Positions 10,629-27,238 of a DNA stretch of 64,000 nucleotides are shown here, in pieces; position 1 is the first letter of the stretch, and each line of letters starts with the position of its first letter. The notes under the pieces are model-generated. The model worked only from the letters and a program-made list of their open reading frames with translations, was not told the DNA's origin and made no database searches. Made by a program: the position numbers and the translations under genes. The DNA is from Nevskiales bacterium (GTDB lineage Bacteria; Pseudomonadota; Gammaproteobacteria; Nevskiales; Nevskiaceae). The stretch lies in contig JAQVDP010000004.1 in the NCBI GenBank assembly GCA_028698335.1, positions 124,001 to 188,000 on the forward strand. Direction: 5' to 3'.

Positions 10629-10654
10629 AAATTGGTAATAATTATTACCAATTT
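10629..10654. promoter_or_regulatory. 26-bp perfect palindrome, core GGTAA-N6-TTACC (operator A)
   Basis: A perfect 26-base palindrome centred at 10641.5, with the core GGTAATAATTATTACC at 10634-10649. It is AT-rich in a GC-rich neighbourhood and lies 88 bases before the acyl-CoA dehydrogenase start. The same 5-6-5 spaced motif recurs upstream of the carboxylase beta, SDR and AtuA-like genes, so a shared repressor or activator site is likely. The size and symmetry would suit a TetR-family dimer (inference). Confidence 0.7.
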
Positions 10655-10741
10655 TCTCTGGATGTTGGCGCAATGCTCTTGCCGATATATCGTTGAGCTT
10701 ATGAAAAGCCTCGTTCGAGGCATAACGGAACGGTAATCAGC

Positions 10742-11887
10742 ATGACCATATCAAGCCCTTACTACACTGCGGAGCACGACAGCTTCCGGCAACAGGTTCG
10801 CCGCTTCGTCGACCGGGAAGTCGCCGCCAATATCGCTCGCTGGGAAACTGCCGAAACGCTCCCCCGCGAATTGCACTTGGCCGCGGCGGAAGCCGGAATC
10901 CTGCAGATCGGTTTTCCGGAATCCTGCGGCGGCGTCGAAGTTCCCGATCTGTTTTACATGATCGTCCTGACCGAAGAACTGGCGCGGGCCGGCAGCGGCG
11001 GCCTGGTCGCAAGCCTGATGTCGCACGGCATCGGCACCCCGCCGATCATCCATGCCGGGACCGCGGAACAGCAGCAGCGCTTCGCCGCACCGGTCCTGCG
11101 CGGCGAGAAAATCGCCGCACTGGCCATCACCGAGCCTTCGGGGGGATCGGACGTCGCCAACCTGCGCACGCGCGCCGTTCTCGACGGCGACCACTACCGC
11201 GTTTCCGGCAGCAAAACCTTCATCACTTCCGGAATGCGTGCCGACTTCATCACGACCGCCGTACGCACCGGCGAGTCAGGAATGGGCGGCGTTTCGCTGC
11301 TTGTGATCGAGGGTGACACGCCCGGACTGACCCGCACCCCCCTGAAAAAGATGGGCTGGCGTTGCTCGGATACCGCGACCCTGTACTTCGACGACTGCAA
11401 GGTCCCTGTCGCCAACCGGCTGGGGCCCGAGAACACCGGATTCCTGCCCATCATGATGAATTTCAATCAGGAGCGCATCATGCTGGCTGCGCAGGCACTG
11501 GCATTCGCCAAGGTCTGCTACGACGAAGCCCTCGACTACGCCCGCCAACGCGAGACCTTCGGCAGACCCCTGATCCGCAACCAGGTGATCCGCCACAAGC
11601 TGATCGACATGCGCATGCGCATCGAGGCGGTGCAGTCCAATCTCGATCTCCTGGCCTGGCGCGTCAGCCACAAACAGCTCCCGGTGGCGGAAGTCTGCCT
11701 GCTGAAGAACTTCGCCACGACCAGCCTCGAATGGATCGCCAACGAGGCCATGCAGGTCCTCGGAGGAGCCGGCTATCTGGATGGCAGCAAGGTCGAACGC
11801 ATTTATCGGGAGACCAAGGTGCTGAGCATCGGCGGCGGGTCGATCGAAATCATGAAGGACCTTGCCGCGCGGCAGCTGGGTTATTGA
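10742..11887 (+). CDS. Acyl-CoA dehydrogenase (LCAD/IVD-type active site; candidate AtuD-like)
   Basis: FAD-dependent alpha,beta-dehydrogenation of an acyl-CoA, passing electrons to ETF. The protein has 381 residues with the full ACAD fold: ITEPSGGSD at about 129-137, a FAD/substrate loop, and the C-terminal helices. The position equivalent to the medium-chain catalytic Glu is Gly (SIGGGS), while FNQERIM has E244 where isovaleryl- and long-chain enzymes carry their base, so E244 is the likely catalytic residue. Candidate substrates are branched or long acyl-CoAs. It shares an operator-like palindrome with the carboxylase cluster 8-16 kb downstream, which suggests a role like citronellyl-CoA dehydrogenase AtuD. 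It ends at a clear terminator. Confidence 0.85.
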   Translation: MTISSPYYTAEHDSFRQQVRRFVDREVAANIARWETAETLPRELHLAAAEAGILQIGFPESCGGVEVPDLFYMIVLTEELARAGSGGLVASLMSHGIGTPPIIHAGTAEQQQRFAAPVLRGEKIAALAITEPSGGSDVANLRTRAVLDGDHYRVSGSKTFITSGMRADFITTAVRTGESGMGGVSLLVIEGDTPGLTRTPLKKMGWRCSDTATLYFDDCKVPVANRLGPENTGFLPIMMNFNQERIMLAAQALAFAKVCYDEALDYARQRETFGRPLIRNQVIRHKLIDMRMRIEAVQSNLDLLAWRVSHKQLPVAEVCLLKNFATTSLEWIANEAMQVLGGAGYLDGSKVERIYRETKVLSIGGGSIEIMKDLAARQLGY

Positions 11888-11910
11888 ACGAGGCGGACCA
11901 GGCCACAAAA

Positions 11911-11938
11911 AAAAGGGCGCCGTGCGGCGCCCTTTTTT
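11911..11938. terminator. Bidirectional intrinsic terminator
   Basis: Stem GGGCGCC / GGCGCCC (11915-11921 and 11926-11932) with a GTGC loop, six T on the right and eight A on the left. It separates the convergent acyl-CoA dehydrogenase and Ig-like lipoprotein genes and can serve both strands. Confidence 0.9.
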
Positions 11939-11951
11939 GAACCTGCACGAA

Positions 11952-13460
11952 TCAACGCTGGCGATTCATCGTCGTCACCGGATTTTCCGGCAGAACCGCA
12001 TTGCCGCAGGCCGCATAGACCTGGGTCGATGAGAACGCGGACACCAGACCCGAATCGAAGGTCAGGCGAATGCCGTTGTACGCCTGGGTGACCGCATCGG
12101 CCGGCATCGCCAGCAACGCGAGATCGCTATCGTACGGCCCGGTCACCACGGTCCCGAGCAGTGCGAGCCCCAGCGGCGTCGAATCGATCCCCGCCGAGTC
12201 GCCGGTCGGCACGCCGTCCATCAGCGTCTCGATGGTGAGCTGCGACAACACCTCGGCATTGATCAGCTGCCCGGAGGGACGCCCGATGATGAAGCCCGCG
12301 GGCTCGGTTTCCGGGAACACCGTCGGCGATGTCACCGTCACCGAAGCGGTCGCGGCCAGCAGTCCGACCGGCACCTGCAGCTCACCGAAGTTGGTGTCGT
12401 CCTCGTCGATGATGTTGCTCTCGTCGCTGACGTTGCACAGCAGGCACAGCGGCGACACCTCGCCAACGACCTCGGCACCTGCCGAAGCGCGCAACGCGGT
12501 ATTGCAGCCGCTGAAGGTCACCGTCAGCTGTGCGCTGGCCGTGTCCTTGGTACGGTCATTCATCGGCACTGTCGGCTTGACCTGCGCAGAAATCGTCGTC
12601 TGCCCCAGCTCGACACCGGTCGCGACACCCTGCGCATCCACTGTCGCGGTGGCCTCGTCCGCCGAGGTCCAGTCGACCTTGTCGTCCGCCAGCGCGGCCT
12701 CGGTTCCGTCCGAATACGCGGCATAGGCCACGAACTCGGTAGTGTTGCCCTTGGCGACGGTCGCGATCACCGGCTCGACCCGCAACAGGCTGTCGAGGTC
12801 GGCTTCACGCACCGTCAGTTGCGCCTGCGCCGTCACCGCTGTGCTCGAACCCTGCGGAACCGTGCTGGCGGTGATCGACAGCACGCCGAGAGTCTGGCTG
12901 GTCGCAATTGTCGTGACGCCCTGCGCCGGACTCAGCGTCGCGACGCTGGAATCGACCGGCGACCAGGTCACCGTCGTCGTGATGTTGCGTTCGGTATTCG
13001 GGGCATCCGAGTACGTCCCCTTCGCGGTGAACGCGACCTGCGCACCCAGCGGAATGTTGGCCGTCGGCGGATCGATCGTCATCGTCAGCAGCGTCGGCGG
13101 CCCGATGATCAGCTGCGCGGTACCCTCCAGACCATCACGCTTGGCGCTGACGATGACCGTGCCCTGCGCCTTGGTCGACACCAGACCATCGCCGTCGACA
13201 CTGGCGCGGTTGGGATCGTCCACCGACCAGGTGACGTCACCGATCGGGCTCGAGGACTCGGAGGTGTTCGAGCCCGGAGGCGTGGTGAACACACCGATCG
13301 CCGAAAACTGCCGAGTCTGCCCCAACGCGACCGTGTCCGATACCGGTGTCACTTCAACGCGAATCAACTCGGGAGTGAAATCCGGGCTCTGTACAGCCCC
13401 GTCCCCGCACGCCCCGATGGCCAGCGTCAGCACCGCCATCATCGCTCGTAATGCTTTCAT
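11952..13460 (-). CDS. Ig-like (BIG2-type) repeat lipoprotein with C-terminal CxxC-containing domain
   Basis: A 502-residue predicted lipoprotein. Its signal peptide ends in a lipobox (LAIGAC, C18). Three bacterial Ig-like repeats follow at roughly 32-119, 124-218 and 226-315, each with a G-x-x-x-x-F-x-A strand, a W-S/T-S-x-D segment and a final SA strand. A different C-terminal domain (about 320-502) contains CLLC (339-342) and an acidic stretch DESNIIDEDDT; similar domains occur in surface proteins of other bacteria. Likely exposed on the cell surface; function unknown. RBS GGGAG is 6 bases before the ATG. A second lipoprotein of the same style lies at 35.8-37.1 kb. Confidence 0.8.
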   Translation of the reverse strand: MKALRAMMAVLTLAIGACGDGAVQSPDFTPELIRVEVTPVSDTVALGQTRQFSAIGVFTTPPGSNTSESSSPIGDVTWSVDDPNRASVDGDGLVSTKAQGTVIVSAKRDGLEGTAQLIIGPPTLLTMTIDPPTANIPLGAQVAFTAKGTYSDAPNTERNITTTVTWSPVDSSVATLSPAQGVTTIATSQTLGVLSITASTVPQGSSTAVTAQAQLTVREADLDSLLRVEPVIATVAKGNTTEFVAYAAYSDGTEAALADDKVDWTSADEATATVDAQGVATGVELGQTTISAQVKPTVPMNDRTKDTASAQLTVTFSGCNTALRASAGAEVVGEVSPLCLLCNVSDESNIIDEDDTNFGELQVPVGLLAATASVTVTSPTVFPETEPAGFIIGRPSGQLINAEVLSQLTIETLMDGVPTGDSAGIDSTPLGLALLGTVVTGPYDSDLALLAMPADAVTQAYNGIRLTFDSGLVSAFSSTQVYAACGNAVLPENPVTTMNRQR

Positions 13461-13519
13461 GTGCTCCCGACTCCCACGGAATTCTCAAGCTTCCCTTACA
13501 AAACGGTGACCGACCGTTA

Positions 13520-13548
13520 TTTACGGCCGCCCATAAGGCCATCATAAT
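13520..13548 (+). promoter_or_regulatory. Candidate sigma-70 promoter for the OmpA/TSP3 gene
   Basis: TTTACG (13520-13525), a 17-base spacer, then CATAAT (13543-13548) in the divergent region between the lipoprotein and OmpA-like genes. It would give a leader of roughly 130 bases. Sequence match only. Confidence 0.4.
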
Positions 13549-13686
13549 GCATCGAAAGCTGCAATTGAGCAGGTGCACGTCGTTTTTTTGTCAGCAGACT
13601 CCTCTACGCTGGCTGGCACATGAACAGAACGGGCGCATTGTTCATGCACGTTGGGGACACAAACAGGGATTTGGAGAGTCACTAAG

Positions 13687-15195: not shown

Positions 15196-15213
15196 CCCAA
15201 GGCGGATTGATGC

Positions 15214-15247
15214 AAAAAAGCCCCGCAGCATCTGCGGGGCTTTTTTT
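15214..15247. terminator. Bidirectional intrinsic terminator
   Basis: Stem GCCCCGCAG / CTGCGGGGC (15220-15228, 15232-15240) with a CAT loop, seven T on the right and six A on the left. It lies between the convergent OmpA-like and hemerythrin genes. Confidence 0.92.
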
Positions 15248-15263
15248 GTGCCGATTCCGGAGG

Positions 15264-15788
15264 TCAGTGGGACGAGCGCGCCCACAGGCGCTGCAACCAT
15301 GACGGCTTGGCGTACTGGGCACGCACGCCGCGCGACAACAGATGCGGCGCGTACTTCTGGTCCGAAGCCAGGATGTGTTCGGTCAACCAGCGCTTGAGGA
15401 AAAACAGCAGTTCCCCGGTGATTGGCTTGCCTTCGACCATCACCTTGCGGCGCAACTGATACACCTGCTCGACGAGTTCCTCATGCTCGGCCTTGTGCGC
15501 TTCGTAGTCGGGATAGTCGAGCATGCGCATCAACGCCTCCTCAACTGCGAAGTGAATGCGGGTGTAATCCACCAGCCGCTCCAGAATCTCCGCCGCGTCG
15601 CGGGCGCCGTGACGCTCGACGATCGCCACATGCAGCTGATTGAGCAGATCGACCAATGTCTTGTGCTGACTGTCGATTTCCTCGATGCCGACGCTGAGTT
15701 CGGGCGTCCACGCGATCAGCGGCACATGGGCATGGGGGACCGCAGCGTCTGCGGTCTTGGCGTGCACGGCATGGGCGGGTGCGTTCAT
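15264..15788 (-). CDS. Bacteriohemerythrin (di-iron O2-binding protein)
   Basis: A 174-residue single-domain hemerythrin with a longer His/Ala-rich N-terminus (about 1-22). The seven expected di-iron ligands are visible: H42 (DSQHKTL), H79 and E83 (IHFAVEE), H98 and H102 (HKAEH), H138 and D143 (HILASD). The family binds O2 reversibly and is linked to O2 storage or delivery, or to aerotaxis when fused. An Anr/FNR-like box lies upstream at 15845-15858, suggesting induction at low oxygen. The last residues (SWLQRLWARSSH) extend beyond the fold. Confidence 0.92.
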   Translation of the reverse strand: MNAPAHAVHAKTADAAVPHAHVPLIAWTPELSVGIEEIDSQHKTLVDLLNQLHVAIVERHGARDAAEILERLVDYTRIHFAVEEALMRMLDYPDYEAHKAEHEELVEQVYQLRRKVMVEGKPITGELLFFLKRWLTEHILASDQKYAPHLLSRGVRAQYAKPSWLQRLWARSSH

Positions 15789-15844
15789 CGTTGCAGTTCC
15801 ATTCAGGCCTGGCTGAAGACTGAGTCGCGCACTCCGACCGGACT

Positions 15845-15858
15845 TTGATATGCGTCAA
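15845..15858 (-). promoter_or_regulatory. Anr/FNR-type box upstream of bacteriohemerythrin
   Basis: Read on the minus strand this is TTGACGCATATCAA, matching TTGAY-N4-ATCAA. It is centred about 63 bases before the start codon. If it sits at -41.5, transcription would start about 20 bases before the ATG, leaving room for a short leader. Confidence 0.55.
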
Positions 15859-15945
15859 TGCCGCTCCTGGCCGGTCCGGACGAGCGGACGGACGGATGCG
15901 GTTTCCGTTCGGCGGTGATGAACGGCGGCGACCGCGCGACGCAGC

Positions 15946-17958
15946 TCAGCCCGGTGCGCGGTCGGTTTGCGTCGGCTCGATCTGCACCAGCAGCTGCCGA
16001 TTGCGCACCTGCTGCCCGACTTCGGTGCTCACGGCCACCACGGTTCCGCCGACCGGCAGCGACAGGCGGAATTCCATTTTCATCGCCTCGAGGATCGCCA
16101 GCGTCTGCCCCTTTTCGACGACATCTCCGGCCGCGACGGAAACCGCGACGATCTTGCCGTCCGAATTGGCGAGCAGTCGTCCGTCGGATCCGGCGGCGGC
16201 CGACTGTGCCGGCGCCAGCGTGACATCCTCGAACACCTCGCAACAACCGCTGGCCTCAAGCCAGATCCGGGTGCCGTCGCGCGCCACCCGCGCCTCGGCA
16301 CCGACACCGTCGATTGCGTAGACGAACCCTTCGGCGTCGTGCCGCTCGACCTCGATCGACAAAACCGACTCGTCCAGTCGCACCTCGAAGCGCCGCGGCG
16401 ACCGTACCGCCATCTCCACCCGGTACAGTCGATCACGCCATCTGAGCGAGTACGGTGTCGGAAACACATGCGAGCTGTGCCAGCCCTCGAATTCATCACC
16501 AAGCGCGTGCTCGTCCGCGAGTCGGCGTGCATCATCCAGATACAGCGCGACGACCACCAGCCCGATCTGCTGCAACGTCGGTTGCTGGCACCCAAGCACG
16601 GACTGCGGGAAATGACGCGCGATGAATCCGGTATCGAAATGTCCGTCCGCGAAGGCATCGTGCCCGACGAAAGACCGCAGCGCGACCTTGTTGCTGAGCA
16701 CACCGAGCAGCACGGTGTCATCGAGCGCCTTTGCCAGTCGCGCCCGCGCCGTCTCGCGATCCTTGCCCCATGCGATGATCTTGCCCTGCATCGAGTCGTA
16801 GTACGGGCTGATCACCTGGCCCGTATGCAGGCCGGTGTCGACCCGGATCCCTTCGCCCTGTGGTGCCCGCCACCGCAACACCTGCCCTGCCTGGGGCAGA
16901 TATTCGCGGGTCGGGTCCTCCGCGCACAGCCGCGCCTCGATCGCCCATCCACTCCGCCGCGCGTCGATCTGCTGCTGCGTCAACGGCAACGCTGAGCCCT
17001 GCGCAACCAGTAGCTGCCATTCAACGAGATCGAGCCCGTAGACGGCCTCGGTCACGGGATGTTCCACCTGCAGGCGGGTGTTCATTTCCAGGAAATAGAA
17101 CTGTCCGTCGGCCGCCAGCATGAACTCGACCGTTCCGGCGCCGACATAGTCGACAGCGCGTGCCGCTGCGATCGCGGCCGCGCCCATCCGCCGACGCAGA
17201 TCGTCGTCCACGGCAGGCGAAGGCGATTCCTCCAGAACCTTCTGGTTGCGACGCTGCACCGAACAGTCGCGTTCACCGAGATGAACGACGTTGCCGTGGC
17301 GATCACCGAAGACCTGGATTTCCACATGGCGCGCATGCGTCACTGCCTTCTCGATCAGCAACTCACCACTACCGAAGGCGCTCGCCGCCTCGCTGCGCGC
17401 CGACCGGATCTGCTCGAGCAGCACTGCGTCATCGTCGACCAGACGCATGCCGCGCCCGCCGCCGCCGGCCGCAGCCTTGATCATCACCGGGAACCCGATC
17501 CGGCGCGCTTCCGCCGCCAAGGTGTCGTCCGACTGGTCGGCGCCCTGATATCCAGGTACACAGGGCACCCCGGCCTCGATCATGCGCGCCTTGGCCGCGG
17601 ATTTGTTGCCCATGGCCTCGATCGAACCTGGATCCGGCCCGACAAAAACCAGTCCCGCATCCACGACAGCCTGCGCGAAATCGGCTCGCTCCGACAGAAA
17701 GCCGTATCCGGGATGGACCGCGTCGGCGCCGCTGCGCTTCGCCGCTTCGATCACCCTTTCGATCGACAGATACGATTCGGCTGCGGGCGCCGGACCGATG
17801 CAGACGGCGTGATCGGCATCGCGGACATGCCGCGCATCGCGGTCGGCTTCGCTGAACACCGCCACGGCACCATAGCCCTGCGCGCGCGCCGTGCGTATGA
17901 CCCGGACTGCGATCTCGCCTCGATTGGCGACGAGTATCCTGGTGAAGCGCTTGCTCAT
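15946..17958 (-). CDS. Biotin-dependent acyl-CoA carboxylase alpha subunit (geranyl-/methylcrotonyl-CoA type)
   Basis: A 670-residue biotin carboxylase plus biotin carrier. The biotin carboxylase domain spans about 1-445 (ILVANRGEIAVR; the ATP-grasp glycine loop AAAGGGGRGMR; FLEMNTRLQVEHPVTE). A BT-like interaction region follows (about 460-590), then a C-terminal biotinyl domain with EAMKME, K627 being the biotinylated lysine. It carboxylates biotin for the beta subunit at 18.8-20.4 kb; the two are split by an enoyl-CoA hydratase gene, an order seen in both liu (leucine) and atu (terpene) clusters. The AtuA-family neighbour and the absence of HMG-CoA lyase favour an AtuF-like role, but sequence alone does not decide. 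Start ATG at 17958, 7 bases after the hydratase stop. Confidence 0.85.
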   Translation of the reverse strand: MSKRFTRILVANRGEIAVRVIRTARAQGYGAVAVFSEADRDARHVRDADHAVCIGPAPAAESYLSIERVIEAAKRSGADAVHPGYGFLSERADFAQAVVDAGLVFVGPDPGSIEAMGNKSAAKARMIEAGVPCVPGYQGADQSDDTLAAEARRIGFPVMIKAAAGGGGRGMRLVDDDAVLLEQIRSARSEAASAFGSGELLIEKAVTHARHVEIQVFGDRHGNVVHLGERDCSVQRRNQKVLEESPSPAVDDDLRRRMGAAAIAAARAVDYVGAGTVEFMLAADGQFYFLEMNTRLQVEHPVTEAVYGLDLVEWQLLVAQGSALPLTQQQIDARRSGWAIEARLCAEDPTREYLPQAGQVLRWRAPQGEGIRVDTGLHTGQVISPYYDSMQGKIIAWGKDRETARARLAKALDDTVLLGVLSNKVALRSFVGHDAFADGHFDTGFIARHFPQSVLGCQQPTLQQIGLVVVALYLDDARRLADEHALGDEFEGWHSSHVFPTPYSLRWRDRLYRVEMAVRSPRRFEVRLDESVLSIEVERHDAEGFVYAIDGVGAEARVARDGTRIWLEASGCCEVFEDVTLAPAQSAAAGSDGRLLANSDGKIVAVSVAAGDVVEKGQTLAILEAMKMEFRLSLPVGGTVVAVSTEVGQQVRNRQLLVQIEPTQTDRAPG

Positions 17959-17965
17959 TGCTTGC

Positions 17966-18790
17966 TCATTCCTCGTTGTTTTCCGCCACAGCCCACTTCG
18001 CCTTGCGCTTCTGCAGGAACGCCGAAATACCCTCTGGCGCCTCGGCACCGCGGGCACAGCCGGCAAACTGCCGGGCGGCTGCGTCCAGTACGGCGTCCAT
18101 GTCCTGGCGTGCCGCGTCCAGGACGATGGCCTTGGTCACCGCATTGGCGTGCGGCGCGCATTCGCGGACCCGCGCGACCGTCTCGGCGAGCTTTCGCGCC
18201 AACTCGTCCTCATCGCCGAAGGTGTCGTGAACGATGCCGAGCTGCCGTGCCTCGGATCCGCGAAACTCCGCCCCGGTCAGGCACAGGCGCCGCGCCTGGG
18301 TGAGCCCGACCCGCTCGACCACGAACGGTGCGATCTGTGCCGGCGGCAGGCCCCTCCGGGTTTCAGGCAGGCCGAATTTCGCCGTCTCGTGCGCCAGTGC
18401 GATGTCCGAAACGCAGACCAGCCCGAAACCACCACCCAACACCGAACCTTCGCAGACAGCAATGACCACGGCGGGCACGCGCCCGACCTTGCGCAGCATC
18501 GTGCCGAAGCGGCGCGACGAGACCTCGATCGGATCGGTCCCGTCCCGGGCGGGCTGGAGCCCGCCCGCCATGACCTCGCGCAGGTCCGCTCCCGCGCAGA
18601 AATGGCCGCCGGCCCCGCGCAGCACCATCGCCCGGACCTCTTCACGGCTCGCGACCTGCTCGCAGACCCTCTCGATCTGCTCGACCATTGCCAGCGTCAG
18701 GGCGTTGCGCGTCTCCGGGCGGTTCAGCGTGACCTCGAGCACCCCGTCTGCGTAGGCCAGCGCCACGGCATCGAATTCCGGCAACTCCAT
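17966..18790 (-). CDS. Enoyl-CoA hydratase/isomerase family protein (AtuE/LiuC-like)
   Basis: A 274-residue crotonase-fold protein, with VTLNRPETRNAL near the start, the oxyanion-hole segments GAGGHFCAGADL and GSVLGGGFGLV, and GLPETRRGLPPAQIAPFVV. Between the two carboxylase genes, it would hydrate the carboxylated product (isohexenylglutaconyl-CoA in the Atu pathway or methylglutaconyl-CoA in the Liu pathway). The ATG at 18790 follows a strong GGAGGGAG. The usual second glutamate position reads SVLGGGFG, so the acid/base pair should be checked by alignment. Confidence 0.82.
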   Translation of the reverse strand: MELPEFDAVALAYADGVLEVTLNRPETRNALTLAMVEQIERVCEQVASREEVRAMVLRGAGGHFCAGADLREVMAGGLQPARDGTDPIEVSSRRFGTMLRKVGRVPAVVIAVCEGSVLGGGFGLVCVSDIALAHETAKFGLPETRRGLPPAQIAPFVVERVGLTQARRLCLTGAEFRGSEARQLGIVHDTFGDEDELARKLAETVARVRECAPHANAVTKAIVLDAARQDMDAVLDAAARQFAGCARGAEAPEGISAFLQKRKAKWAVAENNEE

Positions 18791-18822
18791 TTCCACTCCC
18801 TCCGCTCCTTTGCGCGCCAGGA

Positions 18823-20448
18823 TCAGAAACGGGCGACGCCAAAACTGTTGGCGCAAAGCTCACGTACCTGCGCCTCGCGACAGACCGACAGACACAGCCC
18901 CAGCACCCGACGGGTGTCGCGGGGATCGATCAGGCCGTCGTCAAACAGCCGCGCGGTCGCGGCAAAGGCGTGCGACTCCTTGTCGAACTGGTTGACGATG
19001 TTCTGGCGGATCATCGCCAGCATCTTCTCGTCGGCCTCGGACATCTGCTTGTGCTGTTTGGCCCATTTCTCCCGCGTGATGATTTCCATGACCCCGGCCG
19101 CCTGCTCACCCCCCATCACCGACGTGCGCGAATTCGGCCATGCGAAGATGAAATGCGGGCCGAACCCACGACCACACATGCCGTAGTTGCCGGCGCCGAA
19201 AGAACCGCCCATGACGATCGTGATCTGCGGCACCGTCGCATTGGCCACGGCCTGGATCATTTTCGAACCGTGCTTGACGATGCCGCCCTGCTCGCTTTCG
19301 GTTCCGACCATGTAGCCGGTGGTGTTCATCAGGTACACGATGGGGATGTCGGCCTGGCAGCAGAGCTGAATGAACTGACCGGCCTTGACCGCACCCTTGG
19401 TGGTGATGGGGCCGTTGTTCGAGATGATTCCGATCTGGTGCCCGTGCAGCACCGCACGACCACAGATCGTCTGCTGATCGAACTCGGTCTTGAAATCGAG
19501 AAACTCGGAGCCGTCGACGATCCGCGCGATCACTTCGCGGCAGTCGAACGGTTGCCGGTAGTCCGGCGGCACCGCCCCGCACAACTCGTCGACGTCGTAA
19601 AGCGGCGCCCGGACCGGGCGCAGTTCCAGACGTGGCCGTCGTCCGTTCCAGTTGAGATTGGCCACGATTTCGCGCGCGATGCGGATGCCGTCGACATCGT
19701 TTTCGGCGATGAATTCGCTGGTCCCCGCGACCTGGCAATGCATCTCGGCACCACCGAGGTCCTCGTCCTTGGCGATCTCGCCGGTGGCTGCCTTCAGCAG
19801 CGGCGGGCCGGCGAGGAAGACCTTGGCCCGCTTGCGAACCATGACCACGTAGTCCGACAGACCCGGCATGTACGCGCCACCCGCGGTCGACGAGCCGTGC
19901 ACGACGGTGACCTGGGGAATGCCCGCCGCCGACAGCCGGCACTGATTGGCGAAGGTCCTGCCGCCGGGGATGAACACATCGGCCTGATACATCAGATTGG
20001 CCCCGCCGGACTCGATCATCGAAACCACCGGCAGCTTCTGCTGCAGGGCGATCTCCTGGATGCGCAATCCCTTCTGAACGCCCCAGGGCGTCATCGTGCC
20101 GCCCTTGATCGCCGAATTGGACGCAGTAACGATGCAGCGTACGCCGGACACGTAGCCGATCCCGGCGATGGTGTTGCCGCCGGCCAGAGAGCCGTCCTTG
20201 TCGTCGTGCTGTTTGTAGCCGGCCAGCGTCGACAGCTCGAGCCACGGCGAGCCACGGTCCAGCATCAGATGCACGCGCTCCCGCGGCAGGATCTGGCCGC
20301 GATCGTGGAAGCGCTGACGCTTGCTTTCCTCGGCTTCGCGCCCCTTGCTCTCAATCGCACGCCACGCCCCGATCAGCTCCAGCATCGCCGACCGGTTCTG
20401 CTGGAACTGTTCGCTGGCGGGATTCAGCTTCGACTCGATAATCGACAT
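18823..20448 (-). CDS. Acyl-CoA carboxylase beta subunit (carboxyltransferase; AtuC/LiuB-like)
   Basis: Carboxyltransferase that moves CO2 from biotin to a branched enoyl-CoA. There are 541 residues from the ATG at 20448 (a GTG at 20457 adds three). Two crotonase-like lobes are visible: N-lobe GSSTAGGAYMPGLSDYVVMV and AGPPLLKAATGE, C-lobe NTTGYMVGTESEQGGIVKHG and GGSFGAGNYGMCGRGFGP, all typical of the MCC/GCC group. The segments AGGNTIAGIG and SNSAIKGGTMTPWG look to me more like geranyl-CoA than methylcrotonyl-CoA carboxylases, but I cannot align here. It is first of the minus-strand unit beta - hydratase - alpha, with an operator-like site about 70 bases upstream. Confidence 0.85.
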   Translation of the reverse strand: MSIIESKLNPASEQFQQNRSAMLELIGAWRAIESKGREAEESKRQRFHDRGQILPRERVHLMLDRGSPWLELSTLAGYKQHDDKDGSLAGGNTIAGIGYVSGVRCIVTASNSAIKGGTMTPWGVQKGLRIQEIALQQKLPVVSMIESGGANLMYQADVFIPGGRTFANQCRLSAAGIPQVTVVHGSSTAGGAYMPGLSDYVVMVRKRAKVFLAGPPLLKAATGEIAKDEDLGGAEMHCQVAGTSEFIAENDVDGIRIAREIVANLNWNGRRPRLELRPVRAPLYDVDELCGAVPPDYRQPFDCREVIARIVDGSEFLDFKTEFDQQTICGRAVLHGHQIGIISNNGPITTKGAVKAGQFIQLCCQADIPIVYLMNTTGYMVGTESEQGGIVKHGSKMIQAVANATVPQITIVMGGSFGAGNYGMCGRGFGPHFIFAWPNSRTSVMGGEQAAGVMEIITREKWAKQHKQMSEADEKMLAMIRQNIVNQFDKESHAFAATARLFDDGLIDPRDTRRVLGLCLSVCREAQVRELCANSFGVARF

Positions 20449-20458
20449 TTCCGACACG

Positions 20459-20514: not shown

Positions 20515-20530
20515 AACAATATGCATTACC
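20515..20530. promoter_or_regulatory. Operator-like site B, AACAA-N6-TTACC
   Basis: AACAATATGCATTACC on the plus strand, matching the right half of operator A exactly and the left half at AA. It sits about 67 bases before the carboxylase beta ATG, near a plausible minus-strand promoter (TTGTTA about 17 bases before ATATAG, with TTGTTA inside the site). Confidence 0.55.
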
Positions 20531-20560: not shown

Positions 20561-21430
20561 TCAGGTGCCGGGCACAGCCTTCGGCTTCACCGCACGGTGG
20601 AAGCCGGCATACGGCCTCGAGCGGTTCTGGTTGAGCAGCGGGAACGCCTTGGCGCCCAGCCCGCTGCCCCCGTCGATCTTGATGCAGGTGCCGGTGATGA
20701 ACGCTGCAGCCTCGGACAGCAGGAACACGATTGCGGAACTGACCTCCGCCTCCTCGCCCATGCGCTGCAACGGTGCCAGCCCCGCCAGCTTCGGAATCAC
20801 CTGGGTCGCGAAGATCGGATCATAGTGATCCATACCGCTGGAGGCGATGTAACCTGGCGCAACGGCGTTGACCCGGACACCCGCAACCCCCCACTCCACG
20901 GCAGCGGTTTCGGTGAAGTTGAGCATACCGGCGCGGGCGGCGCCGCTGTGCCCCATCCCCGGCATCCCGCCCCACATGTCCGCAATCATGTTCACGATGG
21001 ACCCGGTGTTCTTTTTCATGAACTGCGTGTAGACCTCACGCGCGACCAGAAATCCGCCGGTGAGGTTGTTGGCCACGACCGCATCCCACCCCTTCTTCGA
21101 AATCGCTTCCAACGGCGAGGGGTACTGACCACCGGCGTTGTTGACCAGACCGTGAATCGCGCCCCGGTCATCGAGTACACGCTTGACCGCGTCACGCACC
21201 GCATCCTCGTCGCGGATGTCGAAGCTCACCGAACTGGCGGAACCGCCGTCTTCGGCGATCTCGCTCAGGGTCCGCTCCAGTTTCTCGGGCTTGCGCCCGG
21301 TGATCACGACGTGTGCGCCGAGACTGGCGAGTTCGTGCGCGACACAGCGACCGATGCCGGAGCCACCGCCGGTCACCACAATGGTCTGCCCCTCAAACGA
21401 ACCCGGCGCAAAAACTGAACGGTACCCCAT
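20561..21430 (-). CDS. Short-chain dehydrogenase/reductase, PECR-like, with non-canonical active site (AtuB/AtuG-like)
   Basis: A 289-residue SDR with a Rossmann start VVTGGGSGIGRCV (GGGSGIG 21-27), NNAG (97-100) and a C-terminal TGTCIKIDGGSGL. The usual YxxxK is absent: the region reads HSGAARAG (161-168), the same pattern as peroxisomal trans-2-enoyl-CoA reductases, and the nearby position where that family has YxxxK reads MLNFTE here. A role in reducing an enoyl-CoA or oxidising a terpenoid alcohol/hydroxyacyl-CoA is possible from context. The ATG at 21430 has GAGGA upstream. Two operator-like sites lie within 170 bases upstream. Confidence 0.82.
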   Translation of the reverse strand: MGYRSVFAPGSFEGQTIVVTGGGSGIGRCVAHELASLGAHVVITGRKPEKLERTLSEIAEDGGSASSVSFDIRDEDAVRDAVKRVLDDRGAIHGLVNNAGGQYPSPLEAISKKGWDAVVANNLTGGFLVAREVYTQFMKKNTGSIVNMIADMWGGMPGMGHSGAARAGMLNFTETAAVEWGVAGVRVNAVAPGYIASSGMDHYDPIFATQVIPKLAGLAPLQRMGEEAEVSSAIVFLLSEAAAFITGTCIKIDGGSGLGAKAFPLLNQNRSRPYAGFHRAVKPKAVPGT

Positions 21431-21486: not shown

Positions 21487-21502
21487 GGTAACGGTATTTA
21501 CC
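21487..21502. promoter_or_regulatory. Operator-like site C, GGTAA-N6-TTACC
   Basis: GGTAACGGTATTTACC, a perfect 5-bp inverted repeat with the same spacing as operator A, about 57-72 bases before the SDR start codon. Confidence 0.6.
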
Positions 21503-21565
21503 CGAAACCCCGCTCGACATCGGCCTTGTTGTGGGCAAGGGACAGGAGCCCTTGCGCTTGTGGAA

Positions 21566-21599
21566 ATTCTACAGAATTTGCCTGACAACTGATATTACC
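21566..21599 (-). promoter_or_regulatory. Candidate SDR promoter with operator-like site D (GACAA-N6-TTACC) on its -35
   Basis: On the minus strand TAGAAT (21566-21571) is a good -10. The -35 position 17 bases upstream (21589-21594) falls inside GACAACTGATATTACC (21584-21599), the fourth copy of the motif. Binding there would cover the -35, which fits repression. Whether this or another promoter drives the SDR gene is not known. Confidence 0.45.
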
Positions 21600-21681: not shown

Positions 21682-21711
21682 TTGCGCCGCTCTGCGCTGG
21701 ACAGGGAGGCC

Positions 21712-22644
21712 TTACAGCTTTCCGGTCAGCTCCGGCAGCACCTGGAACAGGTCGCCGACGAGGCCGAAATCGGCGACCTCGAAGATCGGCGCTTCCGGGT
21801 CCTTGTTGATCGCAACGATGGTGCGGGCGTCCTTGATGCCGGCCAGATGCTGGATCGCACCCGAGATGCCGACCGCGAAGTACAGCTCCGGAGCGATGAT
21901 CTTGCCGGTCTGGCCGACCTGCATGTCGTTGGGCACGTAGCCCGAATCGACCGCGGCACGCGACGCGCCGACGGCGGCGCCGATCTTGTCCGCGAAGTCA
22001 TAGACGACCTTGAAGTTCTCGGAGCTGCCGAGCGCGCGGCCACCGGAGACGACACGGGCGGCGGACTGCAGATCCGGACGCTCGGACTTCTGCGCCTCCA
22101 GCTTCACGTAACGGGTATGGCTCGGCAGCGCCGCGTCAACCGTCACTGCCTCGACCGCGGCACTGCCGCCTTCGGCCACGCCCTGGAACGACGCCAGGCG
22201 CACCGTGGCGACAACCGTGCCTTCCGGCGCTTCGACGGTCGTGATCGCGTTGCCCGCGTAGATCGGACGATCGAAGCTCGACGCGCCGTGCACCGCCATG
22301 ATGTCGCTGACCTGCTGCACGTCCAGCTTCGCGGCGACGCGCGGCGCCAGATCCTTGCCGAAGGTTCCGCCCGGGAACAGGACGTGGCTATAGCCCTTCG
22401 CCAGCTCGACGATCTGCGGCGCCAGGATCGCTGCAACCGGGTTGGCGTTGGCGGCGTTGCTGACCGCCAGCACCTTGCTGACGCCGTCGAGCTTGGCGGC
22501 CTGATCGGCGACCGCTGCGGCATCGGCCGCGAAGACGGCGATTTCGATCTCACCGCCGATGCCCTTGGCGGCGGCGACGGTCTTGGCGACACCGGCACTC
22601 AGCTGGCCATCGGCGTGTTCTGCAATAACTAGAATCTTGCTCAT
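21712..22644 (-). CDS. etfA: Electron transfer flavoprotein subunit alpha
   Basis: FAD-binding subunit of ETF, which accepts electrons from acyl-CoA dehydrogenases. It has 310 residues, with the C-terminal FAD domain signature [33 protein letters not shown], and [20 protein letters not shown], then [19 protein letters not shown]. It follows etfB by 26 bases and ends at a terminator. The partner dehydrogenase is probably the one at 10.7 kb, among others. Confidence 0.96.
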
Positions 22645-22670
22645 CGTTGTTTCTCGTCCGTAGCCCGTGA

Positions 22671-23417
22671 TCAGAGGAGGCCCTTGCCCTTGAGCGCTTC
22701 CACCAGCTCATCGGTCGTCTTGACCATGATGCCCTTGGAGCGACTCGGCGGCGGCGCCGTCTTCGTCGTCTTCACGCCGGCGCCGGCGGTGACGCCCAGA
22801 TCAGCCAGCGAAACCGTTTCGATCGGCTTCTTCTTGGCCTTCATGATGTCCGGCAGCTTCAGATAGCGCGGCTCGTTCAGACGCAGGTCCGTCGTGATGA
22901 CGGCCGGCAGGTCGACCTCGAGAACCTCGAGGCCGGCGTCGACCTCACGGGTTACGACGGCCTTTTCGCCATCGATTTCGACCTTGGACGCGAACGTCGC
23001 CTGGGCGATATCGAGCAGGCTCGCGACCATCTGCCCGGTCTGGTTGGCGTCGTCGTCGATCGCCTGCTTGCCGCACAGGAACAGCTTCGCGTCTTCCTTC
23101 TTGACCGCAGCGGCCAGGGCCTTGGCGGCGGTCAGCGGCTGGATCTCGCCATCATCCTTGATGTGGATCGCGCGATCGGCACCGAATGCCAGCGCCGTAC
23201 GCAGCGTTTCCTCATTCTTGGCACCGCCGATGGTCACGGCAACGATCTCGGTGACCGTGCCCTTTTCCTTCAGGCGGACCGCTTCTTCCATGGCGATTTC
23301 GTCGAACGGATTCATCGAGTGCTTCACGCCATCGGTGACCACGCCCGAACCGTCGGGCTTGACCTGGATGCGGACGTTGTAGTCCACGACGCGTTTAACG
23401 CTCACGAGTGCTTTCAT
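22671..23417 (-). CDS. etfB: Electron transfer flavoprotein subunit beta
   Basis: AMP-binding subunit of ETF, 248 residues beginning MKALVSVKRVVDYNVRIQVK. It contains KHSMNPFDEIAMEEAVRLKE and the AMP-site segment CGKQAIDDDANQTGQMVA, typical of EtfB, and the recognition-loop region EVDLPAVITTDLRLNEPRYL. It is encoded directly before etfA and after the ETF-quinone oxidoreductase gene on the same strand. Confidence 0.96.
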   Translation of the reverse strand: MKALVSVKRVVDYNVRIQVKPDGSGVVTDGVKHSMNPFDEIAMEEAVRLKEKGTVTEIVAVTIGGAKNEETLRTALAFGADRAIHIKDDGEIQPLTAAKALAAAVKKEDAKLFLCGKQAIDDDANQTGQMVASLLDIAQATFASKVEIDGEKAVVTREVDAGLEVLEVDLPAVITTDLRLNEPRYLKLPDIMKAKKKPIETVSLADLGVTAGAGVKTTKTAPPPSRSKGIMVKTTDELVEALKGKGLL

Positions 23418-23510
23418 CGGCTCTTCTCTATCTACGTAAAACAGTCACTTGGGGTATTTCAGGCTGGCGCGTACCGCACCGCCACATGCATCCGTCGCCG
23501 ACGGCGTGGA

Positions 23511-25172
23511 TCACATGTTGGCGTAATTCGGTCCGCCGCCGCCCTCGGGGGCGACCCAGTTGATGTTCTGGGCGGGGTCCTTGATGTCGCAGGTCTTGCA
23601 GTGTACGCAATTCTGCGCATTGATCTGAAATCGCTTGTCGCTGCCTTCTCCGACCACTTCGTAGACACCCGCGGGGCAGTAGCGCTGCGCCGGCTCGTCG
23701 TACATCGGCAGGTTCTGCGCGATCGGGATGCTCGGGTCCTTCAGCTGCAGATGGACCGGCTGGTCCTCCTCGTGGTTGGTGCTCGACAGGAACACCGATG
23801 ACAGCTTGTCGAAGCTGATCTTGCCGTCCGGCTTCGGGTAGTCGATCTTCTGCGACTCCGCCGCCGGCTTCAGCGTCTTGTGATCGGGCTTGAGGTCATG
23901 GAAGGTCCACGGGAACTTGCCGCCGAAGATGTTCTGCTCGATCCAGTTGATCGCGCCACCGATCAGCGATCCGAACTTGTGCATGATCGGACCGAAGTTG
24001 CGGCTGCGGTACAGCTCGTCGTAGAGCCAGCTGGCCTTGAACTTGGTCGCGTAGCCATCGAGTCTGGCGCTGCCGTCCGCACCGGCAATGAGCGCTTCGG
24101 CGACCGCTTCGGCGGCGATCATGCCGGACTTCATCGCGGTGTGGCTGCCCTTGATCTTGGCGAAGTTCATCGTGCCCAGGTCGCAGCCGGCCAGCACGCC
24201 GCCGGGGAAGGCCATATCCGGCATCGAGTTGAGGCCGCCCTTGCAGATCGCGCGGGCGCCATAGGCCACGCGGGTGCCGCCCTCCAGGTACTGACGGATC
24301 ACCGGATGCTGCTTGAAGCGCTGGAACTCGTCGAACGGCGACAGATACGGATTCGAATATGACAGGTCCACGATCAGTCCGACATAGACCGTGTTGTCCT
24401 CGAGGTGATACAGGAACGAACCACCCAGGGCGCTGGTACCGACCAGATCCAGCGGCCAGCCCGCGCCGTGCACGACCAGGCCCGGCTCGAACTTGGACGG
24501 GTCGACCGTCCAGATTTCCTTCAGACCGATACCGTAGTGCTGCGGATCGGCGTTCTTGTCGAGGCCATACTGCGCGATCAGCTGCTTGCCGATGTGACCG
24601 CGGCAACCCTCGGCAAAGATCGTGTACTTGGCGCGCAGCTCCATGCCCGGCGTGTAGTCCGGCTTGTGCTCGCCCTCGCGGGTGACGCCCATGTCGCCGA
24701 CGGTGATGCCCTTGACCACGCCATCCTCGATGATCGCGGTCTGCGCGGCGAAACCGGGATAGATCTCGCAGCCGAGGTCCTCGGCCTGTTGGCCCAGCCA
24801 GCGACACAGATTCGCCAGCGAGATGATGTAGTTGCCCTCGTTGTGCATCGTCTTGGGCACGAACAGCCCGGGCATCTTGAAGCCCTTCTCGGCGCTGGTG
24901 AAGAAATAGATGTCGTCGCGCTTGACCGGCGTCTTCAGCGGCGCGCCCTTTTCCTTCCAGTCCGGGAACAGTTCGTTGAGTGCACGCGGCTCGAACACCG
25001 CACCCGAGAGGATGTGGGCGCCGACTTCGGATCCCTTCTCGACGACGCAGACGCTCAGCTCCTGCCCGGCCTCGGCGGCCTTCTGCTTGAGCCGGCACGC
25101 CGCCGACAGTCCGGCCGGGCCGGCACCGACGACGACCACATCGTATTCCATGACATCGCGTTCTACGGACAT
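23511..25172 (-). CDS. Electron transfer flavoprotein:ubiquinone oxidoreductase
   Basis: ETF-QO carries electrons from reduced ETF into the quinone pool at the inner membrane. It has 553 residues, with an N-terminal FAD site DVVVVGAGPAGLSAACRLKQ, ILSGAVFEPRAL, and a C-terminal [4Fe-4S] domain with CPAGVYE followed by CVHCKTCDIKDP. The ATG at 25172 has AGGAAG upstream; an in-frame ATG at 25151 is a second option. It lies upstream of etfB on the same strand, giving a complete dehydrogenase-to-quinone electron path in the cluster. Confidence 0.95.
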   Translation of the reverse strand: MSVERDVMEYDVVVVGAGPAGLSAACRLKQKAAEAGQELSVCVVEKGSEVGAHILSGAVFEPRALNELFPDWKEKGAPLKTPVKRDDIYFFTSAEKGFKMPGLFVPKTMHNEGNYIISLANLCRWLGQQAEDLGCEIYPGFAAQTAIIEDGVVKGITVGDMGVTREGEHKPDYTPGMELRAKYTIFAEGCRGHIGKQLIAQYGLDKNADPQHYGIGLKEIWTVDPSKFEPGLVVHGAGWPLDLVGTSALGGSFLYHLEDNTVYVGLIVDLSYSNPYLSPFDEFQRFKQHPVIRQYLEGGTRVAYGARAICKGGLNSMPDMAFPGGVLAGCDLGTMNFAKIKGSHTAMKSGMIAAEAVAEALIAGADGSARLDGYATKFKASWLYDELYRSRNFGPIMHKFGSLIGGAINWIEQNIFGGKFPWTFHDLKPDHKTLKPAAESQKIDYPKPDGKISFDKLSSVFLSSTNHEEDQPVHLQLKDPSIPIAQNLPMYDEPAQRYCPAGVYEVVGEGSDKRFQINAQNCVHCKTCDIKDPAQNINWVAPEGGGGPNYANM

Positions 25173-25313
25173 GCGCGTACTTCCTAGCGGTCCAAGCCTT
25201 GGGCGCTCGGACCCGTCATAAAAGTGGATTCAGGGGGGCGCATTGTAGTCGACATCCGCACTTGTCGCAGCGCAGCAGCGGCGCCCGCCGCTGTCCCGGC
25301 AGCCAGTGCGCAG

Positions 25314-27131
25314 TCAGGGCGAGTCTGCCCCCGCCAGCGACGCCGCCCACGCGCGGGGCACCCGCACCGGATGATCCAGCAGCATCTGCGCAAATGCCTT
25401 GCCCTGGGGATCCGTGCGCAGCGACGCCGCGCCGCCTCCGCCAAGGGCGTTGTACAGCATGAAATTCAGGCAGTTGCTGGCAGGCAGCTCCCAGCGCTCG
25501 ACGCGCCCTTGCGCCCCTTCGGCGAGGACGTGGGCGAAATATCGCCGCACCGCGTCGACGCTGAGCGCGGCGCGCAGATACGGCAGATATTCGGGACGTC
25601 GCGCGATGACGCCGATATTCGCGTGATCGCCCTTGTCGCCGGAGCGCGCCAGCGCCAGCCGGATCAGGGGCACTACGACGCCCTCCTCCCCGGTCAGCTC
25701 GGCGCCCGCTACCGGCACCTCCGCACCGGGCGGCTCGAATCCGCCGTCGCAGGGCACCTCGACAGCGAACGCCTCATCGCCGATCCGGACCTCGATCGGG
25801 ACCTGCGCCTTGGGCACCAGCGTCGAAAACAGTTTGGGGATCATGTGCGGCTCCGGGCGGCCACCGCCGAAATAGCCGGTGAATCCTGGCGCCATGCCGG
25901 TGGCCGCCTGCGCGATTTCACGCGCGAACAGCTTCAGGGCCTTCGGGTTCGGATGCTGCACGGCGATCTTGACGACCACCTCCCGCGTCGCGGCCGCTCC
26001 GGCGCGCGCATGCGGTCCATAGCTTTCCTCTGCGCCGATGCAGTGGATGTCGACCCCACTGAAGTCGCCCAGCTTGGCTGACAGCAGCTGCCGCCGCACC
26101 TTCTCGACCACCGCGGAGGCCGACGCCCGCCCCTTTCTGGCCGCATCGATCCCGCCGATCATGAACAGCGCGGCACAGCGCATGCCGGCCGGATATGTCG
26201 CACTGACCTTGTAATCCGCCGTCGGCACCCGGCCGCGCGCGCCGCTGACGCGGACCCGGTCGACGCCCGCCTGCTCGACGCGCACACCGGTGAAATCCAC
26301 GACGACATCCGGCAGAACGTAGGCCCGCGGATCGCCGATCTCGTACAACATCTGCTCGAGCACCGTGTGTTCCGACACCAGCCCGCCGGTGCCCTCGGGC
26401 TTGCCGACCTCGAAGCCGCCGTCGGCCCACGCCTCGACGATCGGAAAGCCCATCTCGGCATAGCCGGGCTCGACCAATTCCCAGTCGGTGAAATTGCCGC
26501 CGGTGCACTGCGCGCCGCATTCGATGATGTGCCCGGCAACCGCACCCTGTGCCAGCCGGTCGTAGTCGTCGAACCGCCATCCAAAGGCATGGATCATCGG
26601 CCCGAGAACCACTGCCGAATCGACACAACGCCCCGTGATCACCACATCGGCGCCGGCGTCCAGCGCCCGGGCAATCGGGAACGCACCCAGGTAGGCGTTC
26701 ATCGATACCAGCGTCGCCGGCATCGGCTCGCCGTGATCGATCCCGACGCAATCCGTGAACTCCTTGCGCCGCGGCAGCAGATCGTCGCCGAGCACGATCG
26801 CGACCTTCAGGTCGATCCCGGCCTTGGCCGCCACCGCCTCCAGAGCGGCCTTGCAGGCCTGCGGATTGACGCCGCCAGCGTTGGCGACGACCCGGATGCC
26901 CTGGGCCTTGAGTGCCGGCAGCAGCGGCGCCATGACGTGATCGACGAAGTCGTTGGCGTAGCCCTGGGCCGGATCGCGCATGCGCTTGGCGGCCAGGATC
27001 GACATGGTGATCTCGGCGAGATAGTCGAACACCAGAAAATCGAGCTGCCCCCGTTCGGCCAGCTGAAAGGCTGCAGTGTGGGTATCGCCCCAGAACGCCG
27101 AGGCACAGCCGATGCGGATGCTCTTGTTCAC
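25314..27131 (-). CDS. AtuA family protein (DUF1446, acyclic terpene utilisation)
   Basis: A 605-residue protein with the DUF1446/AtuA fold: IGCASAFWGDTHTAAFQLAE at the start, VNPQACKAAL, VITGRCVDSAVVLGPMIHAF, GGNFTDWELV, and a C-terminal AtuA-like extension (about 480-590, IRLALARSGDKGDHANIGVI). AtuA is required for growth on citronellol/geraniol in Pseudomonas, but its biochemical step is not settled. The start is GTG (27131) with GGAGAGAG upstream. Two operator-like sites precede it. Its presence is the main argument that the neighbouring carboxylase belongs to terpene rather than leucine breakdown. Confidence 0.85.
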   Translation of the reverse strand: MNKSIRIGCASAFWGDTHTAAFQLAERGQLDFLVFDYLAEITMSILAAKRMRDPAQGYANDFVDHVMAPLLPALKAQGIRVVANAGGVNPQACKAALEAVAAKAGIDLKVAIVLGDDLLPRRKEFTDCVGIDHGEPMPATLVSMNAYLGAFPIARALDAGADVVITGRCVDSAVVLGPMIHAFGWRFDDYDRLAQGAVAGHIIECGAQCTGGNFTDWELVEPGYAEMGFPIVEAWADGGFEVGKPEGTGGLVSEHTVLEQMLYEIGDPRAYVLPDVVVDFTGVRVEQAGVDRVRVSGARGRVPTADYKVSATYPAGMRCAALFMIGGIDAARKGRASASAVVEKVRRQLLSAKLGDFSGVDIHCIGAEESYGPHARAGAAATREVVVKIAVQHPNPKALKLFAREIAQAATGMAPGFTGYFGGGRPEPHMIPKLFSTLVPKAQVPIEVRIGDEAFAVEVPCDGGFEPPGAEVPVAGAELTGEEGVVVPLIRLALARSGDKGDHANIGVIARRPEYLPYLRAALSVDAVRRYFAHVLAEGAQGRVERWELPASNCLNFMLYNALGGGGAASLRTDPQGKAFAQMLLDHPVRVPRAWAASLAGADSP

Positions 27132-27145
27132 GCTCTCTCCGACTA

Positions 27146-27161
27146 AACAACGATGATTACC
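27146..27161. promoter_or_regulatory. Operator-like site E, AACAA-N6-TTACC
   Basis: AACAACGATGATTACC, with half-sites identical to site B before the carboxylase gene, 15-30 bases before the AtuA-family GTG. It overlaps an independent inverted repeat CGATGAT-TACC-ATCATCG (27151-27168). Confidence 0.55.
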
Positions 27162-27222
27162 ATCATCGCCAAAACAGAATCAGAGACGTGTTTATGGCCC
27201 ATTAACCATGATGGATACAATA

Positions 27223-27238
27223 GGCAATATCGATTACC
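27223..27238. promoter_or_regulatory. Operator-like site F, GGCAA-N6-TTACC
   Basis: GGCAATATCGATTACC, about 92-107 bases upstream of the AtuA-family start and overlapping the last bases of pgpA (its TAA stop is part of the site). Centre-to-centre distance to site E is 77 bases. Confidence 0.5.

Follow-up and report, generated by a model that had tools for sequence, protein, structure and literature searches.

Within a 64,000-nucleotide stretch of DNA from a Nevskiales bacterium (assembly GCA_028698335.1, contig JAQVDP010000004.1, positions 124,001 to 188,000; hereafter the window), six copies of the inverted repeat RRYAA-N6-TTACC lie upstream of genes for an acyl-CoA dehydrogenase (ACAD1), a carboxylase beta subunit, a short-chain dehydrogenase/reductase (SDR) and an AtuA-family protein. 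These six sites are very probably operators of one acyl-CoA-type TetR-family repressor, encoded on another contig of the same genome, C28, with paired operators like those of the Escherichia coli gal operon. The sites, their pairing, the spacing rule, the conservation with the regulator gene and the overlap with start codons are read from sequence. From these features we infer binding, repression, an acyl-CoA ligand as the signal and the formation of a DNA loop.

The genes concerned, named by Pfam, are as follows.

10742..11887, plus strand: acyl-CoA dehydrogenase (ACAD1)
15946..18066, minus strand: carboxylase alpha subunit (biotin carboxylase and biotin carrier)
17966..18856, minus strand: enoyl-CoA hydratase family protein, on the same strand as the beta subunit and downstream of it
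18823..20457, minus strand: biotin-dependent carboxylase, carboxyltransferase (beta) subunit
20561..21430, minus strand: SDR oxidoreductase
21712..25172, minus strand: electron transfer flavoprotein (ETF) alpha, ETF beta and ETF-ubiquinone oxidoreductase
25314..27131, minus strand: AtuA-family protein

The preliminary description had placed the repeat at 10634, 20515, 21487, 21584, 27146 and 27223, and these are exactly the places at which it occurs in the window. The pattern scan returns eight rows, two palindromes being counted on both strands; the expected number is 0.06 and the maximum of 100 shuffles is 2. Two of the six sites are perfect GGTAA/TTACC repeats, and the one at 10634 is centred in a perfect 26-base palindrome (10629-10654). 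Their location upstream of the four genes is borne out by the distances. The site at 10634-10649 is 93-108 bp 5' of ACAD1 (start 10742), and 20515-20530 is 58-73 bp 5' of the carboxylase beta gene (start 20457). The SDR gene, whose start is taken as the ATG at 21430 instead of the longest-ORF (open reading frame) start at 21538, is preceded by sites at 57-72 and 154-169 bp. The AtuA-family gene (start 27131) has sites 15-30 and 92-107 bp upstream, the latter (27223-27238) overlapping the stop codon of the neighboring pgpA-like ORF (27234). Two further sites are found beyond these six. One, at 10732-10747, covers the ATG of ACAD1, and the other, at 20437-20452, lies within codons 2-7 of the carboxylase beta gene and may be a coding coincidence. 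With both added, all four window targets have site pairs.

The candidate regulator is encoded elsewhere in the source genome (4.30 Mb, 44 contigs). On C28, a TetR-family gene (L014:10181-10795, plus strand) is divergent from a thiolase/fadB-like/acyl-CoA dehydrogenase operon, and the perfect palindrome GGTAAC-N4-ATTACC lies between them. The protein matches PF00440 (TetR_N; 37.4 bits, cut-off 24) and PF08359 (YsiA-like C-terminal domain; 27.2 bits, cut-off 21), and its closest solved fold is Bacillus FadR, the overall fold of which it shares. Its best match is at least 48% identical in 57 of 61 genomes searched, its own included; two of the other four are without a match and two have weak matches only. 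The nearest orthologue is that of Sinimarinibacterium (92%), and the named carriers include Sinimarinibacterium, Fontimonas, Solimonas, Nevskia, Salinisphaera, Collimonas, Acidovorax and Comamonas. When at most two mismatches are allowed, the motif precedes 28 of 30 TetR loci, counting the own one, and 76 of 80 named orthologues, these being the top 80 of 194. Two sites of at least 6 bits are found at the TetR promoter in 28 of the 30 loci. That the window holds no regulator gene had also been claimed; it has no relative of the C28 TetR, though regulators of other kinds were not scanned for.

Two side observations concern the TetR loci. Nine of them, mostly from Salinisphaera (L225, L226, L231, L235, L236, L237, L238, L241 and L242), have an extra site at about -391 to -424, beyond the usual two; it is much alike in all nine and GRAAATCNGGATTACC-like in most. 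L234, from a 23-kb contig of Stutzerimonas stutzeri CLN100, is the sole Stutzerimonas or Pseudomonas entry among the best 80 of 194 named TetR loci. Its orthologue (59%), possibly acquired, is accompanied within 10.6 kb by four operator-like sites with no mismatch or one.

Two weight matrices connect this regulator to the window. The first was trained on foreign TetR promoters, with training sites chosen by the consensus of the source genome's own sites, and its ranking of the window is therefore partly circular. The second was built without the window. In 29 other genomes, every dyad of two four-base words separated by 0-12 free bases was counted in the DNA upstream of TetR, without any motif being supplied. 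The top dyad was GTAA-N6-TTAC, found upstream in 25 of 29 genomes versus 0 of 29 inside the gene and tied only with two overlapping versions of itself. Many other dyads reach 23-24 of 29 upstream of TetR, and these are probably conserved sequence of the neighboring thiolase start. Trained on the GTAA-N6-TTAC sites, the second matrix places the six sites at ranks 1, 2, 3, 7, 8 and 9, all at 9.0 bits or more, and the remaining top-nine places are 10732 (rank 4), 44653 (5) and 20437 (6). The first matrix picks the identical nine places in nearly the same order. This window-free ranking favors the earlier proposal that one DNA-binding dimer would control these scattered genes. The sites in the window are listed below.

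10634..10649: distal predicted operator of ACAD1, GGTAATAATTATTACC; 24.9 bits with the first matrix, rank 1 with both
10732..10747: proximal predicted operator at the ACAD1 start codon, GGTAATCAGCATGACC; rank 4 with the second matrix, 98 bp from 10634
20437..20452: proximal site of carboxylase beta, GATAATCGACATTTCC; rank 6 with both matrices, 78 bp from 20515
20515..20530: distal site of carboxylase beta (weak), AACAATATGCATTACC; 7.2 bits with the first matrix
21487..21502: proximal predicted operator of the SDR gene, GGTAACGGTATTTACC; 17.3 bits with the first matrix, rank 2 with both
21584..21599: distal site of the SDR gene (weak), GACAACTGATATTACC; 7.7 bits with the first matrix, 97 bp from 21487
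27146..27161: proximal site of the AtuA-family gene (weak), AACAACGATGATTACC; 6.5 bits with the first matrix
27223..27238: distal predicted operator of the AtuA-family gene, GGCAATATCGATTACC; 15.6 bits with the first matrix, rank 3 with both, 77 bp from 27146

The remaining place, 44653-44668, is a stray palindrome (CGTAACCCCAGTTACG) that scores 12.5 bits with both matrices. It lies within the span of a minus-strand ORF (43619-45466) and is probably due to chance.

Across the source genome, exact RRYAA-N6-TTACC occurs at 12 places (16 rows), and six of these fall within the 16.6-kb stretch of the window. The reversed-pattern control gives 11 rows. The genome-wide total is thus unremarkable, and the unusual part is the clustering and the perfect palindromes. 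The tighter form GGTAAY-N4-RTTACC is matched perfectly at three places, namely position 10634 of the window, the beginning of an acyl-CoA dehydrogenase gene on C4 (ACAD2) and the gap between the C28 TetR gene and its operon, and with one mismatch at ten more. The preliminary description had suggested looking in the genome for sites next to TetR and atu/fad genes. Such a scan found the C28 TetR/beta-oxidation operon and ACAD2, to which the predicted regulon would thereby extend; its hit at fadB was not conserved. Separately, contig C12 has two one-mismatch operator-like sites 1.26 kb apart (C12:166439 and C12:167701), the latter about 90 bp before an ORF named by eye as thioesterase-like.

Conservation in relatives grades the targets. 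Counts in relatives and pair spacings rest on the first matrix unless the second is named. Upstream sites of at least 9 bits are present at 27 of 30 ACAD2 loci, 16 of 28 ACAD1 loci (L079 and L086 being left out for want of upstream DNA), 12 of 30 AtuA, 10 of 30 carboxylase beta and 9 of 30 SDR loci, and at 28 of 30 TetR loci, the training set. With the second matrix the counts, each followed by its reversed control in brackets, are TetR 28/30 (3), ACAD2 27/30 (2), ACAD1 16/28 (0), AtuA 14/30 (2), carboxylase 13/30 (2), SDR 10/30 (1), fadB 6/30 (5) and fabH 2/30 (1). Permuted matrices average 0.6-1.4 loci. The prediction as a target is firm for ACAD1 and ACAD2, moderate for AtuA and carboxylase, and doubtful for SDR. 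ACAD1, the isolated dehydrogenase at 10.7 kb that had been tied to the carboxylase cluster, has the top-ranked site with both matrices and is the best conserved target in the window. Its site reaches 9 bits in 11 of 13 loci at 75% identity or more, own included, and in 5 of 15 below that. Of 30 carboxylase beta loci, 7 have a site of at least 5 bits between -71 and -73, and of 30 loci of the AtuA-family gene, 7 have one between -23 and -38, own included in both cases. The SDR target is doubtful because five of its nine loci have a match at -6 over the start codon.

In the SDR orthologues L118, L119, L121, L123, L124 and L126, an operator-like match of 7.2-12.8 bits lies at -6, across the start codon; it could be a third start-embedded operator or a coding coincidence. 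Two candidates were rejected. The fadB gene (C2:45118) has its own match and four scattered weak ones among 30 loci, and its 4 of 30 at 9 bits or more equal the reversed control. The fabH gene (C32:216352) has its own match and one other in 30 loci (L377, 11 bits).

The paired sites follow a spacing rule. A pair was defined as the two best sites of at least 6 bits per promoter between -300 and +30. Relatives yield 46 pairs, at 24 of 30 ACAD2 loci, 11 of 30 ACAD1, 5 of 30 carboxylase, 3 of 30 AtuA and 3 of 30 SDR loci. The spacings are 68 bp (1 pair), 76-79 (9), 87-92 (10), 97-103 (20), 110-113 (4) and 123-124 (2), and the gaps between these clusters are empty. Pooling the target sets gives a best period of 11.1-11.4 bp (p <=0.001), whether the threshold is 6, 9 or 12 bits, and also with unique gene-by-spacing values; the null smears the observed spacings, and the rows are related, with kinship only partly controlled. 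ACAD1 alone gives p 0.001 with a best period of 10.5 bp, and unique ACAD2 values alone give p 0.0014 with 11.0 bp. The p of a further test on 14 class means is a guide only, the classes having been drawn by hand after the data were seen. At the divergent TetR promoter itself, no significant spacing period was found (28 pairs, p 0.18). Parsimony on the best trees, in which many forks are weak, gives five spacing-class changes for ACAD2 and three for ACAD1, the classes being about one turn apart. When 58 family genomes were searched by pattern for pairs 60-120 bp apart, 17 distinct places turned up, in 16 of the genomes, and the control gave no match. All 17 precede ACAD1, ACAD2 or TetR, as judged by N-terminal sequence or coordinates. 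In six of the eight ACAD1 places, an AMP-ligase-like ORF (by Pfam on three of the six) opens divergently across the operators, which is another link to fatty acids.

The proximal site is often built into the gene start. At ACAD1 it is mostly GGTAAT-N4-RTGACY with the start codon in the right half, and 12 of the 30 orthologue loci, the own one among them, have GGTAAT precisely at -10. The commonest form at ACAD2 is RGTA-ATG-NNN-NTT-ACC, in which the operator sequence is made up of the start codon together with codons 2-4. Codon 3 is NTT in 27 of 30 ACAD2 genes, and NTT makes up 5.9% of the I/L/V/F codons in gene bodies. The three genes without it are exactly the loci without the start site. The NTT excess points to selection on the DNA in addition to that on the protein. 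Beyond the family, among 24 genomes reached via the named loci, the only strong examples of the start-codon site are those of L335 and L336, each from a Nevskiales-side genome; L344 has a weak one. By approximate sigma70 weights, the best sigma70-like promoter falls entirely within the interval from one operator to the other in 20 of 24 ACAD2 pairs, an interval that is most of the scanned stretch, and it is TTGACN with TATAAN in nine. At the ACAD1 gene of the window these weights give no clear promoter.

In the proposed mechanism, the C28 TetR would bind GGTAAY-N4-RTTACC as a dimer and would also control its own gene and the divergent beta-oxidation operon. Accumulating fatty acyl-CoA would most likely make the repressor release the DNA, and ACAD1, ACAD2 and the AtuA-family/carboxylase cluster would be switched on. 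The ETF genes, on the same strand downstream of the AtuA-family gene, possibly share a transcript with it and would then respond as well. Targets read in a single direction have two predicted operators separated by 68-124 bp, a distance that changes by about one helical turn at a time, and the one downstream is often part of the translation start. The promoter-like sequence that scores best at ACAD2 usually falls between the two, as in the gal operon. Dimers on both operators could then close a DNA loop of about 70-125 bp round the promoter, with the spacing evolving in whole turns and the inner operator, in the start or first codons, dictating codon choice and partly the N-terminal residues. 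This looped arrangement is put forward tentatively, with a chance just short of even. As a whole, the predicted regulon looks like general fatty-acid degradation and not an atu-specific circuit.

Several observations weigh against the operator reading. Half of the six sites (20515, 21584 and 27146), those with AACAA or GACAA half-sites, are within the chance range by score. They reach 9.0-9.4 bits with the second matrix, and the reversed window scores alike (two matches of at least 7 bits and four of at least 6 with the first matrix, two of at least 9 with the second), so they are not significant on score alone. The NCBIfam FadR model NF053878 gives the C28 TetR only 62.3 bits, far under its cut-off of 200. 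Single permuted matrices reach many loci, up to 22 for TetR and 20 for ACAD2. NTT is codon 3 in 4 of 16 ACAD2-like homologues from other genomes, above 5.9%, and the ACAD2-like genes of the 24 other genomes mostly lack the start-codon site. The preliminary description had named two outcomes that would speak against a regulon, many matches across the genome in unrelated or coding positions and poor conservation in close relatives. Half of the 12 exact places are in the window, but the counts are just modestly above the reversed control (16 vs 11 rows; 145 vs 97 places at up to two mismatches). Some matches are within ORFs: C10:6176 (biotin-carrier-like, by eye), C16:130906 (beta-lactamase family), C34:7316 (DUF411), C42:116320 (ribosomal L3) and C4:122097 (DUF2244). 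The C2 (fadB) and C32 (fabH) matches are not conserved, the fadB set standing at 4 of 30, or 6 of 30 versus 5 of 30 with the second matrix. These and the five matches inside ORFs show that scoring well is not enough to be a target. The ACAD1 site is conserved, but conservation is weak for the AACAA/GACAA sites and for the SDR target. SDR orthologues mostly lack window-like sites, and five of the nine loci at 9 bits or more have only the start-overlapping match.

That the sites are chance palindromes in AT-richer intergenic DNA is scarcely credible. The three weak sites alone could be chance, but the 0.06 expected for the set, the conservation, the pairing and the codon use all speak against it. 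It is very unlikely that the regulator is instead the AtuR-like TetR on C10, which adjoins paralogues of AtuA and carboxylase beta and also matches the YsiA-like C-terminal model. C10:1-20000 has one site of at least 8 bits, within the biotin-carrier-like ORF, and a main regulator whose own cluster has no operator at a promoter is improbable. The motif also tracks the C28 orthologue, as the 76 of 80 named loci attest, and the lowest-identity AtuA rows (L112-L116) are without an upstream site. The C10 locus itself (C10:4503-10837, L395) holds the second AtuA-family gene (54% identical), its own TetR, the carboxylase beta paralogue and the biotin-carrier-like ORF, and the source genome may thus have two separately controlled AtuA clusters.

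A stronger contender keeps the C28 regulator and dispenses with the loop. The distal dimer would hinder polymerase, the proximal one would act as a roadblock or hide the ribosome site, and the period would reflect phasing between the distal site and the promoter. We consider this plausible, though somewhat less likely than not. In 14 of 24 ACAD2 pairs the predicted -10 stays at 31-35 bp from the proximal site and it is the distal site that shifts, which means that the distance from distal site to promoter is phased too. In three ACAD1 loci (L061, L062 and L065), TATAGT follows closely on the distal site. However, where an ACAD2 promoter is flanked by the two sites, the predicted -35 is mostly 35-56 bp downstream of the point at which the distal site begins, a distance too great for occlusion alone, and in L288 and L289 the distance from -10 to proximal site is 44 bp instead of about 33, one turn more. 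Compatible with the paired-operator repressor is the idea that the regulator is simply FadP, the TetR-family repressor predicted for Burkholderiales, here in a gammaproteobacterial order; we give this an even chance. Acidovorax, Comamonas, Aquabacterium and others have orthologues that are about 50% identical and come with this motif, and FadP represses several beta-oxidation operons including an adjacent one (PMC12543098, PMC5343134). PMC5343134 describes FadP as unique to betaproteobacteria among the genomes studied there.

The nearest named regulon is that of FadP, of which the C28 TetR may be an orthologue. As with FadP, the predicted sites lie beside the regulator gene and in front of beta-oxidation operons, in the own genome and in relatives. 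The host differs, being a Nevskiaceae-type gammaproteobacterium, and the ACAD2 start-codon site was not seen in the Burkholderiales genomes searched. Bacillus FadR (YsiA) shares the TetR_N and YsiA-like C-terminal domains and supplies the closest solved fold (3whc, with stearoyl-CoA); like it, the C28 TetR lies beside beta-oxidation genes that it probably controls. The two are only 21-22% identical, and the operator of Bacillus FadR differs from GGTAAY-N4-RTTACC. PsrA of Pseudomonas and Xanthomonadales is likewise a TetR-family regulator of beta-oxidation genes in gammaproteobacteria. It is set apart by its box, given as G/CAAAC(N2-4)GTTTG/C in PMC10304680, which is unlike GGTAAY-N4-RTTACC and the GTAA-N6-TTAC dyad found upstream of C28 TetR orthologues. 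The Vibrio PsrA NCBIfam model gives the C28 TetR 25.5 bits against a cut-off of 300.

In Pseudomonas aeruginosa, AtuA-family, carboxylase, hydratase and SDR genes are clustered under AtuR. The window cluster appears instead to answer to a fatty-acid-type regulator encoded elsewhere, with a separate AtuA/TetR cluster on C10. An AtuR-type regulon would have the regulator gene beside the atu cluster and the operator at its own promoter; the C10 cluster shows no such operator at a promoter, and the window has no relative of the C28 TetR. The TetR family is usually described as acting at single or adjacent operators. Loops are described for other regulator families (PMC4486848). In E. coli gal, according to PMC4693257, the GalR operators OE (-60.5) and OI (+53.5), 16 bp each, lie 113 bp apart around the promoter, the inner one is within the first gene, and helical phase matters. 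The pooled spacings described here likewise fit operators in fixed helical phase, within the partial control of kinship. The differences from gal are that the regulator is TetR-family and not LacI/GalR, that the loop is proposed, and that the spacing varies by about whole turns between species. No TetR-family parallel for looping or paired operators was found in a limited search of the open-licence literature, which excludes none, and a narrow search of the same kind found no publication on such a regulon in Nevskiales. The repressor would thus be of a known kind, with an operator layout for which that limited search gave no TetR-family parallel.

A motif first seen by eye thereby becomes a candidate regulator with a testable regulon in Nevskiales. 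The spacing rule may be read as an evolutionary record of helical phasing. If looping is true, the TetR family would join the regulators that act through gal-like loops.

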